Source of the DNA: Rhodobacteraceae bacterium (ex Bugula neritina AB1)
GTDB taxonomy: Bacteria; Pseudomonadota; Alphaproteobacteria; Rhodobacterales; Rhodobacteraceae
DNA length: 64,000 bases
Reading direction: 5' to 3'
Assembly: GCA_001730095.1 (NCBI GenBank)
Contig: MDLF01000074.1
Coordinates: 310,001 to 374,000, forward strand
Each line of letters begins with the position of its first letter. The first letter of the stretch is position 1. The notes beneath the pieces were generated by a model, which searched no databases, was not told where the DNA came from, and was given only the letters and a program-made list of their open reading frames with translations. Position numbers and translations under genes: made by a program. Positions 3-48,460 of the stretch are shown in pieces.

Positions 3-1538
3 CGCCCGGCCGAACGGTCGCTAAGCGTCGCTGCCGTGGAACAGGCCACGGAAACCGATCCCGCTCCTGCCAGCCTCGACCAGATTCCGGCAGAACTGTC
101 TCTGAAGGTTCCGCTGGGCCGCGCGCTGGAACTGGCTCCGGAAATCAGCCCCTATATTCAGGCCGGCACAAAAGTCTCGATCCTGGAAACCCCATCCGCC
201 GGTGTCACCTCGCTGCGGACTGGCGACGGCAGTTCCCTCAGCCTCAGCTATGCGCCCACGCTTGCTGAACTGCCCGCACGCAAGGATGGCGGTCAGGTCC
301 GCAGGGACAGTATGGTCCTGCGGCTGGCGCAGGCGGACACGGTGCGCGATGTCACGGTAAACCTCGAGATGATCGCGCGCCAATGCGACCTGGAGGCAGG
401 CGACCTTCTGGACCCGCAGGGCGTCGGCCTGTTCCGCTACCCCAATGAAATCGACCTCAAGGCTGCTGAAACGGCCTGCCGCGAGGCCATGGAAGCTGCA
501 CCGGACATCGGCAGGCTGCAGTATCAGCTGGGCCGCGCACTGCAGGGCCAGGGCCGTTTGCTAGAGGCTTATGACGCCTTTGAAAAGGCCGCTGAACTGG
601 GCCACGTCCGCGCCTACAACGCATTGGCCTATCTGCATGTCACGCCGAATGTCGACCGCGAGACCGTTCCGATTCCGTATGATCCTGACAAGGCGTTTTC
701 ATTGTGGGACAAGGGGATCGACGCCGGCGACCCCTTTTCGATGCATGCGCGCGGCAAGCGGCTGCTGCGCAAGAACGGCAGTGCCGAAGAAAAGCAGCAG
801 GGTTATGATCTTCTCAGCCGTGCCGTAGAGCTTGGCCACACCTATGCGCTGAACGAACTGGGCGTGTTTTTCCTGTGGAGCGGCGATGAACTGGCGCAGC
901 CAGAACGCGGGCTGACCTACCTGGAGGCCTCTGCTGGGCGCGGCGACATCTACGGCACAGCCAATCTTGGCTATGTCTACCGGGATGGTGGTGCCGGCAA
1001 GGCAGTGGACAAGGAAAAAGCCCGCACCCTTTTTGCCGAAGCAGCAACGCTGGGCCACCCGCATGCGCCGGGTGAAATCGGCCGGATGATCATGAATGGA
1101 GATCTGCCCGGCAGCGATGCTGCAGAAGCGCTGGAATGGTATGACATGGGGCTTGCCCGCGGTGATGCCTGGGGCGGCGCCAACGGCGCCTGGGTGGCGC
1201 TGAACCGGTTGTCAAACCGCGTGCCGGCCCATGCCGCAGCTGCCCGGGCTGGCAAAGCAATGGCACTGAACAACCCGGATGCGCGGGCTGCTGCGCGCGA
1301 ATTTCTGACCGGCATGAGCAAGACCGATATCGCAGCCGCCACCCAATTCATCCTGCAAGCGCTGGGGTCCGGTGTTTCTGTCGACGGACAATTCGGCCCG
1401 GCTTCCCGCCAGGAGCTAGCCGATTGGGCCCGGCGGGCGGGGCTGCCCGCCACTGTTCCCGAAGATGCGATCAGCAGGCTGCAGCTTGCTGCGCAAGTTC
1501 ACTTTGCCCTGAACCCGATCCGCCAGGACTTGTTCTGA
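3..1538 (+). CDS. Sel1-repeat protein with C-terminal peptidoglycan-binding-like domain (5' partial)
   Basis: The reading frame is open to the left edge of the window, so the true start lies upstream; the first in-window start codon is a GTG at 36. The middle of the protein holds TPR/Sel1-type helical repeats, recognisable from recurring pieces such as AYNALAYLH, GHTYALNELGVFF, GDIYGTANLGYVYRDG and GHPHAPGEIG. These repeats usually act as protein-protein scaffolds, often in the envelope. Near the C-terminus, ALGSGVSVDGQFGPASRQEL matches the pattern of a peptidoglycan-binding (PG_binding_1) domain. A periplasmic or wall-associated role is therefore likely, but no substrate can be named. The N-terminus, including any signal peptide or catalytic domain, is outside the window. 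Confidence 0.8.
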   Translation, partial: RPAERSLSVAAVEQATETDPAPASLDQIPAELSLKVPLGRALELAPEISPYIQAGTKVSILETPSAGVTSLRTGDGSSLSLSYAPTLAELPARKDGGQVRRDSMVLRLAQADTVRDVTVNLEMIARQCDLEAGDLLDPQGVGLFRYPNEIDLKAAETACREAMEAAPDIGRLQYQLGRALQGQGRLLEAYDAFEKAAELGHVRAYNALAYLHVTPNVDRETVPIPYDPDKAFSLWDKGIDAGDPFSMHARGKRLLRKNGSAEEKQQGYDLLSRAVELGHTYALNELGVFFLWSGDELAQPERGLTYLEASAGRGDIYGTANLGYVYRDGGAGKAVDKEKARTLFAEAATLGHPHAPGEIGRMIMNGDLPGSDAAEALEWYDMGLARGDAWGGANGAWVALNRLSNRVPAHAAAARAGKAMALNNPDARAAAREFLTGMSKTDIAAATQFILQALGSGVSVDGQFGPASRQELADWARRAGLPATVPEDAISRLQLAAQVHFALNPIRQDLF

Positions 1539-42237: not shown

Positions 42238-42690
42238 ATGTCTGGCGATAGTGATCTTATCAAGCTGTATTCCTCGCGCATTCTGGCGCTGGCAGCCGAC
42301 ATTCCGCATCTGGACCGGCTGCAGTCACCGGATGCCACAGTCAAGAAACGCTCCCCCCTTTGCGGCTCTGCCGTGACCGTCGACGTCACGCTTGAAGACG
42401 GCCGGATCACAGATTTTGGCCAGGATGTAAAAGCCTGTGCGCTCGGGCAGGCCTCGGCCGCCGTGGTTGCTGCGCATGTGATCGGCCGCTCGCTGAAAGA
42501 GGTTGAAACCGCCCGCGATCAACTGAAGGCAATGCTGACCCAGGACGGCCCGGTGCCGGATGCACCTTTTGACGGGCTGGAGGTGCTGCAGCCCGCGCGT
42601 GAGTTCAAGAACAGACATGCCTCGATCATGCTGGCGCTGGAGGCCACGCTGGAAGCCATGCAGACAGCCGCCAAAGAGCAATGCGCCTAA
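42238..42690 (+). CDS. NifU/IscU-like iron-sulfur scaffold protein
   Basis: The 150-aa protein resembles the N-terminal NifU/IscU scaffold: KKRSPLCGSAVTVDVTLEDG and QDVKACALGQASAAVVAAHV carry the first two conserved cysteines. The third expected cysteine region reads FKNRHASIMLALEAT, with Ala in its place, a variation I believe is common in this alphaproteobacterial subgroup. A late Cys (EQCA) ends the protein. It is divergent from hisI; a role in Fe-S cluster delivery is plausible but not established. Confidence 0.83.
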   Translation: MSGDSDLIKLYSSRILALAADIPHLDRLQSPDATVKKRSPLCGSAVTVDVTLEDGRITDFGQDVKACALGQASAAVVAAHVIGRSLKEVETARDQLKAMLTQDGPVPDAPFDGLEVLQPAREFKNRHASIMLALEATLEAMQTAAKEQCA

Positions 42691-42771
42691 CACAGCGCAG
42701 CTGCAAATAACCATCCGCGCCATTCGGTTTCTGACTGAAACGCACATGGTCTCGAAGGCTCTTCAGACATG

Positions 42772-42806
42772 AAAAAACCGCCGCGCATCCGGGCAGATGG
42801 CGGCGG
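42772..42806 (-). terminator. Intrinsic terminator on the minus strand
   Basis: On the minus strand CCGCCGC (42806-42800) pairs with GCGGCGG (42784-42778), with an inner CATC/GATG pairing, and is followed by six T (42777-42772). Lying 156 nt downstream of the small ORF at 42963-43085, it supports a real minus-strand transcript there. Confidence 0.75.
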
Positions 42807-42962
42807 CAGTTATGCTCTGCAGTGCGGGACCCGGGCAGGCCAGGCAGGATCTTGAGGCAATCCAATCGGGGATCGGGACAGGCGGTTGACCCCCTAAATC
42901 AGTCCGGGACAGGAAAGGGCCGGCCCGGCACAGCAGATGCAATCAGGACATCGGGGACAGGG

Positions 42963-43085
42963 TCAGAACAGACTTGGCAAATGGAGCGCGGCCACCAGCA
43001 TCACCATCAAAGATGCCGCGCCGATTGCGTCCTGTAGAAGGGTCGTATGGGCGTTCTGAACGGTATTTTTGATCTGTGTCATCAT
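42963..43085 (-). CDS. Small membrane protein, 40 aa
   Basis: A short frame begins with two ATG codons (43085 and 43082) behind GGAGGAGG, a near-ideal ribosome site 8-11 nt upstream. It encodes MMTQIKNTVQNAHTTLLQDA, then one hydrophobic helix IGAASLMVMLVAALHLPSLF at the end. A clear terminator lies downstream. A single-pass membrane peptide is likely; I believe similar peptides occur in other roseobacters, but their function is unknown. It fills the 543-nt gap between the NifU-like gene and recG; the rest of that gap shows no gene. Confidence 0.65.
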   Translation of the reverse strand: MMTQIKNTVQNAHTTLLQDAIGAASLMVMLVAALHLPSLF

Positions 43086-43233
43086 GGCTCGGGCCTCCTC
43101 CAATTTGTCTCGCTGCGCTTTGGCAATCTTGTTGCCTCTTTGTTCTCATTTTCACAGTCACCTGTAAAGAACTTTTTGAGAACATTTGCGAACATAGCGG
43201 AACGCGGCATGAAAACACGCCAGAAAAAGCGCC

Positions 43234-48460
<5,227 letters not shown>

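Follow-up and report, generated by a model that had tools for sequence, protein, structure and literature searches.

A LexA-type operator, a one-helix membrane peptide and a structured 3' RNA form a candidate SOS unit behind recG in Rhodobacteraceae

Introduction

Why should a frame for a 40-residue membrane peptide lie beside recG and a DNA ligase gene, and does it belong to them? The original prediction, made for a 64,000-nt stretch of the genome of Rhodobacteraceae bacterium (ex Bugula neritina AB1) (contig MDLF01000074.1; hereafter the window), recognized such a frame and called its place beside recG unexplained. The likely answer is that the peptide gene has a LexA-type operator and a promoter-like region of its own, which makes it probably an SOS gene rather than the tail of a recG operon. 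To our knowledge, how Rhodobacteraceae stop dividing after DNA damage is not settled, and the unit described here, with its peptide in 126 of the 149 sampled genera of this major marine group, offers a concrete damage-response candidate containing an SOS-type gene of a size easily passed over by gene callers.

The peptide frame and its neighbourhood

The open reading frame is present as predicted at 42963–43085 (stop codon included) and runs on the minus strand (frame 43085–42963), a detail absent from the original prediction; its translation is MMTQIKNTVQNAHTTLLQDAIGAASLMVMLVAALHLPSLF (40 residues), followed by the stop. The good ribosome-binding site expected before a double ATG is likewise in place, with the Shine-Dalgarno sequence GGAGGAGG (43094–43101, minus strand) standing 8 nt upstream of ATG ATG. 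A loose Shine-Dalgarno-like pattern, counted without a control, lies upstream of the peptide start in 123 of 126 relatives, and ATG is the start codon in 125. The double ATG is no family trait: five of the 83 relatives found by BLAST, the window peptide among them, begin with MM, and it is the first ATG that matches the aligned starts of the relatives. The sole TTG among the best starts of the 126 relatives belongs to L204 (genome G040), a weak profile match whose start may be misassigned.

Both predicted neighbours were confirmed by Pfam, recG (43234–45324, minus strand) directly upstream of the peptide and the NAD-dependent DNA ligase (45321–47717, minus strand) upstream of recG. Further upstream lies a gene for an OmpR-type response regulator (47744–48460, minus strand), which, by its size and place, we presume may be CtrA; if it is, the SOS unit would sit near a cell-cycle regulator. 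Downstream of the peptide, a gene for a NifU-like protein is convergent with it. The RecG protein of the window shares 94–96% identity over 267 residues with named Leisingera records, which places the genome close to Leisingera.

Conservation, selection and topology of the peptide

Conservation of the frame in relatives had been set as the test on which the prediction would stand or fall, and it was found. In a family sample of 149 genomes, one per genus, a BLAST-type search identified relatives of the peptide in 83, and a profile of these 83 extended the matches to 126 genomes, with one match per genome; all 21 genomes of the window's own genus have the peptide. A profile search of the class, in which the best candidates (at most 19) per genome were scored, found it in five of 385 genomes, all five of the same family; because of this scoring, misses in the class are weak evidence.

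The suggested dN/dS check gave a median of 0.07 (190 pairs among 20 complete ORFs of the 21 in the genus), and the constraint is specific to the frame: pN/pS is 0.11 in the peptide frame, whereas the shifted ones give 1.41 and 75.7, and 14, 1, and 32 of 40 sites vary at the first, second, and third codon positions, respectively. Across the 83 peptides, D19, G22, and L34 are invariant, and M1, L26, L30, and P37 nearly so. These patterns indicate strong purifying selection on the peptide frame. Searches of Pfam, NCBIfam, PHROGs, and PADLOC gave no significant match to the peptide, the best protein-family match being phrog_15880 (no function), which was hit by three of the 83 members (E 0.0029), and a PDB sequence search with the peptide returned nothing usable.

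The single hydrophobic helix of the original prediction agrees with both hydropathy, which has a single stretch (best 15-residue window 20–34, mean 2.39), and an AlphaFold model computed on the alignment, which consists of one helix spanning residues 2–39 (mean pLDDT 85.4, pTM 0.45). The part before D19 carries a net positive charge in 64 of the 83 peptides, and one of the 83 has K, R, D, or E beyond that position. A positive N-terminal part followed by an uncharged remainder makes it likely that the N-terminus lies inside and the C-terminal half is buried in the membrane.

A LexA-type operator in front of the peptide gene

Between recG and the peptide start lies GTTCTCAAAAAGTTC (43169–43183, minus strand), which has the form GTTC-N7-GTTC. 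The window holds no other exact match to this pattern, against a chance expectation of 1.5, so that the box alone would mean nothing. Its weight comes from the relatives, which were chosen by protein similarity and not by the box: an exact box lies within 250 nt upstream of the peptide in all 83 BLAST-found loci and in 38 of the 43 loci found by profile only (121/126), and is absent in the other five of these 43. The same 126 loci contain no box in the 250 nt downstream and none upstream when the motif is reversed; the 115,276 nt of more distant upstream sequence hold a single copy, or about 0.002 per 250 nt. The same repeat, in opposite direction, precedes lexA and recA of the window's own genome, and it is found in 28 of 30 lexA promoters of relatives (30 loci read, from 57 genomes with LexA). 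Alphaproteobacterial LexA sites have been sorted into GTTC and GAAC motifs in PMC6473078.

The place of the operator is fixed, and two promoter-like boxes accompany it. A third GTTC (43190–43193, minus strand) lies in register upstream, giving GTTC-N6-GTTC-N7-GTTC, and is conserved at 84–92% per base over 121 loci. Adjoining the operator is TTTACA (43163–43168, minus strand), a putative −35-like hexamer, and further on TGAGAACAAA (43139–43148, minus strand) is a putative −10-like region; GAACAA occurs 38 nt past the start of the box in 103 of the 121 loci. The −10-like region resembles the TAGAAC of lexA promoters and is a poor match to the consensus; we infer the promoter from conservation, as a consensus promoter scan of the window found none. 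An operator of the clade's type at the promoter-like region, in 121 of 126 loci vs. none of 126 in two controls, is what would be expected of a member of the LexA regulon, and SOS control of the peptide gene, which follows from this operator, is very probable.

Among the lexA promoters themselves (L237–L266; own lexA in L205), we observed a recurrent type like TTGACAcaaaacgGGAACatgcgTAGAAC, with a LexA repeat that sits between the −35 and −10 boxes and overlaps them, and in seven of the 30 a second LexA repeat directly follows the first. A match to the LexA DNA-binding domain is absent in four of 61 family genomes (G028, G029, G033, and G059), of which G029, G033, and G059 also have no peptide match; the numbers are small, completeness is 86% for G028 and 74% for G033, and G033 has a diverged ORF behind recG when inspected by eye.

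Linkage to recG

The place behind recG is widely kept: recG precedes the peptide gene on its strand in 80 of the 83 BLAST-found and 41 of the 43 profile-only loci (121/126), at 74–316 nt from the peptide start. The linkage also holds when loci are picked without regard to the peptide. Among the best 80 of 577 loci chosen by a stretch of RecG alone, in which Ruegeria is the commonest named genus, 78 have the peptide, 77 a box behind recG, 75 the peptide with a box 60–130 nt ahead of it, and 75 the 3' RNA described below (E 0.01). Further afield the unit frays. Of the 23 family genomes that gave no profile match, 20 were searched for recG and 16 full recG loci were read; a box is present in 11 of these (eight in the usual direction and three only reversed) and absent in five, and most of the 11 boxed loci have a short hydrophobic ORF as judged by eye. 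PMC3323433 states that recG of some alphaproteobacteria appears to be LexA-regulated; the conserved LexA-type site here is situated after recG and ahead of the peptide.

Five peptide loci (L067, L099, L106, L176, and L179) had no recG upstream within the fetched stretch. As L179 lies inside a 4.15-Mb contig, the peptide unit can probably exist apart from recG. In four genomes (G014, G029, G059, and G095; 97–99% complete), a RecG C-terminal query gave only partial matches of 41–43% identity, which sit in frames of ~1160–1180 aa, a length to be expected of Mfd. These genomes, which are also without a peptide profile match, may thus lack recG or carry a broken copy.

A structured RNA between the peptide and its terminator

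The predicted intrinsic terminator exists, with a bulged GC stem (42807–42777) and six U (feature 42772–42807, minus strand), at some distance from the peptide, ~155–190 nt past its stop codon. Its fold has a z of −1.97, six of 200 shuffles being equally stable. A consensus terminator scan of the window did not list it, probably because of the bulge in the stem, and a hairpin with a T-run (by a rule of our own) is found in the tails of 115 of the 126 relatives.

The gap between stop codon and terminator is filled by a conserved structured 3' UTR RNA of ~140 nt (42807–42946, minus strand), in which a closing stem, P1, surrounds three hairpins, P2–P4. On the same strand, the P2 loop CUGUCCC (42906–42912) is conserved at 91–100% per base in 49 sequences, the P3 loop CGCCUGUCCC (42875–42884; consensus CUGCCUGUCC) at 82–100%, and the P4 loop UGCCUC (42854–42859) at 75–90%; a 5' CUGCC is also conserved. 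Both CTGTCCC and CTGCCTG occur in 94 of the 126 tails, and in one set of shuffled tails no 7-mer reached more than 37.

The evidence for the structure comes from two directions. A comparison that needs no alignment used 70 tails: 115 of the 126 have a terminator, 71 of these have both motif anchors, and 70 are at least 80 nt long. In single-sequence folds, P1 forms in 68 of 70 tails vs. 21% of shuffles, and in an exchange of arms among loci own arms pair at a mean of −22.9 kcal/mol vs. −15.6 kcal/mol for arms of different loci (n = 70, z −19). For 14 loci the own arm ranks first of the 70 partners, and for 45 it ranks in the top five. The tail of the window, folded alone, is not far below its shuffles (z −1.46).

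The second line is covariation. A first alignment of 21 divergent tails gave the terminator alone as consensus structure, and a closer seed of nine tails was needed for the first covariance model. At E 1 this model has 60 matches in the 83 loci, 57 in place and three elsewhere (L088 and second matches in L063 and L109); 48 of the 57 are among the 74 loci outside the seed. Across the 60 matches, two-sided changes occur in all 30 pairs and pairing holds in 89.9% of cells; none of 500 shuffles scores as high. A second model, R2, was built from 49 sequences including the window locus (L002), which it finds with 66.3 bits (E 6.7e-11; own locus part of the model). At E 0.01, R2 matches 65 of the 83 loci (49 its own) and 21 of the 43 profile-only loci (86/126), so that the RNA is either less uniformly kept than the peptide or diverged beyond the reach of the model. 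A set of 52 loci outside the model, made up of the 43 profile-only loci and nine chosen of the 16 recG loci whose genomes have no peptide match, gave 22 matches, namely the 21 in profile-only loci and one in the nine. In these 22 held-out sequences, changes on both sides are seen in 29 of 30 pairs, with a covariation score of 0.480 vs. 0.137 for shuffled and at most 0.097 for slid controls. Covariation counts from model-fitted alignments lean to the model, a bias from which the arm exchange is free. Compensatory changes beyond those of the controls are what a conserved structured RNA should have, and together these sequence comparisons show a 3' RNA whose stems covary and whose C-rich loops are conserved.

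Whole-genome searches, which scored at most 17 to 21 candidates in each genome, found the RNA in 64 of the 149 family genomes, once each and always 3–75 nt past the peptide match on the peptide strand; in the class, with the same number of candidates scored, it was found in three of 190 genomes, all of the same family. Because of this scoring, genome-wide misses are weak evidence. Within the genus, the RNA is found at E 1 in 19 of 20 other loci, and in the exception, L133, the contig ends just past the ORF. The RNA matches no Rfam 15 family: the window region 42600–43400 gave no match at E 1, and 11 relatives gave 10 matches at E values of 5 or less, none of which reached its gathering score or fell in the RNA region.

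Proposed function and alternative readings

The original prediction recognized a small membrane peptide, its ribosome-binding site, and its terminator, and missed the operator and the structured RNA. Operator, peptide, RNA, and terminator form a single unit that much of the family keeps, in most cases behind recG, and we lean towards reading it as an SOS gene under LexA repression whose one short transcript would yield two products. DNA damage would activate RecA, LexA would be cleaved, and the transcript would be made. The peptide would insert into the membrane as a single helix, with its N-terminus inside and almost nothing on the far side, and would act within the membrane, most likely by restraining the late division machinery as SidA of Caulobacter does. 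Whether still part of the transcript or released by processing, the RNA would act through its CUGUCCC and CUGCCUGUCC loops, which would base-pair with G-rich sites of other mRNAs, for which GGGACAG and GGACAGGCAG are candidate sequences.

For the peptide, two ways of explaining the frame away carry little weight. That it is a chance ORF at the end of recG is refuted by its presence in 126 of 149 genera and in all 21 genomes of the genus, together with its dN/dS, and we give this practically no credence. Scarcely more probable is that the RNA is the actual gene and the ORF a by-product: the RNA is indeed strongly conserved, but a frame-specific dN/dS of 0.07 contradicts this, and the peptide profile reaches 126 loci vs. 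86 for the RNA model. A more serious alternative is that the peptide resembles TisB or DinQ and depolarizes the inner membrane, leading to dormancy and not to a block of division, while the RNA controls its own mRNA. The SOS-type operator and the single helix would suit such a function, but one match per genome in 126 genomes, usually at one chromosomal place, with D19, G22, and L34 invariant, is in our judgement more uniform than a toxin module would be expected to be. Pairing of the 5' UTR with the 3' RNA of the same transcript was rejected, as leaders pair with their own 3' RNA no better than with those of other loci (69 loci, z 0.19, p 0.57). We consider this reading rather unlikely. The uniform chromosomal copy and the conserved helix favour the SidA type over the TisB/DinQ type, and we put the chances that the peptide is a division or growth brake of the SidA type at about even.

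For the RNA, the main alternative is a cis element without targets, which would stabilize the mRNA of the peptide or protect its 3' end. The RNA ends at the terminator and, in the 64 matched genomes (at most 17 to 21 candidates scored in each), always stands beside the peptide and occurs once, as such an element would; its loop sequences are nevertheless conserved (CUGUCCC at 91–100% and CUGCCUGUCC at 82–100%), while its stems vary freely. This leaves the purely cis-acting element a possible, if somewhat less probable, explanation. Conserved loops on freely changing stems suggest that something reads the loops, and a protein could do so in place of an mRNA. Protein-titrating RNAs carry repeated similar loop motifs, and similar loop motifs are repeated in this molecule, yet no candidate protein presents itself, and we consider protein binding improbable. 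Whether the RNA instead acts in trans by loop pairing is, in our estimate, evenly poised. A search of the 64-kb window alone, run without a control, found no mRNA target; counted over both strands, the 7-nt loop complements occur 12 to 18 times, and some copies lie no more than 45 nt ahead of a possible start. A GAGGCA in the lexA leader of the window's own genome had suggested that the P4 loop might pair with that leader; this was rejected, as two of 30 relatives have the sequence.

Combining trans action of the RNA with a SidA-type peptide, one transcript might stop division twice, through a membrane peptide at the septum and through a C-rich-loop RNA that silences mRNAs of division or growth. 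We offer this only tentatively and think it on balance doubtful; if true, it would add an RNA arm to the DNA-damage checkpoint in much of the Rhodobacteraceae. The peptide and the RNA can each be deleted and studied separately.

Comparison with known systems

The closest parallel for the peptide is SidA of Caulobacter crescentus, a 29-aa SOS-controlled inner-membrane peptide that blocks division via FtsW (PMC4211646). Both are very small inner-membrane peptides of alphaproteobacteria under SOS control, proven or predicted, and the peptide described here is by prediction a LexA-controlled, single-helix membrane peptide as SidA-type inhibitors are. It differs in length (40 aa vs. 29 aa), and homology is not implied; moreover, the passages of PMC4211646 that describe SidA mention no structured 3' RNA, which is present here. 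TisB and DinQ of Escherichia coli are SOS-induced small membrane peptides that act on the membrane and are paired with separate RNAs, istR-1 for the former, and agrA and agrB for the latter. A small peptide and hairpins with C-rich loops are found on one RNA in RNAIII, and C-rich loops alone in UCCC-loop sRNAs. With these the likeness is confined to the plan, as the organisms and the regulation are unrelated.

Among the open-licence papers listed by literature searches, no title or beginning of an abstract describes the peptide or the 3' RNA, which does not prove their absence from the literature, and passage searches found no recG in PMC6473078, PMC8625941, PMC4809877, PMC5036791, and PMC5107571. 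A screen for structured RNAs in 26 genomes (PMC8632094) reports Rhodobacterales motifs at other genes, and its supplement may list the present RNA.

Within the family, Pos19 of Rhodobacter sphaeroides is also a short stress-induced transcript that combines a translated small ORF with a role as regulatory RNA (PMC5036791); its 150-nt ORF lies in a 219-nt transcript between cxp and fadB and is controlled by RpoE, whereas the unit described here lies at another locus and has a LexA-type operator. The nearest precedent for the 3' RNA is DinR of Klebsiella, a LexA-controlled RNA from the 3' end of an mRNA that represses ftsZ (PMC10907235). In both cases, the 3' part of a small LexA-controlled mRNA acts, or would act, as an RNA in the DNA-damage response. 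The mRNA of DinR encodes DinI, which modulates the stability of RecA filaments (PMC10907235), and not a membrane peptide, and its pairing stretch lies in a variable, Klebsiella-specific region, whereas the RNA described here has a multi-hairpin fold present in much of the family. Set against these systems, the peptide by itself would add one more small protein to a known sort; what is new is the joining of a peptide under LexA-type control to a conserved RNA without an Rfam 15 match, in much of the family.
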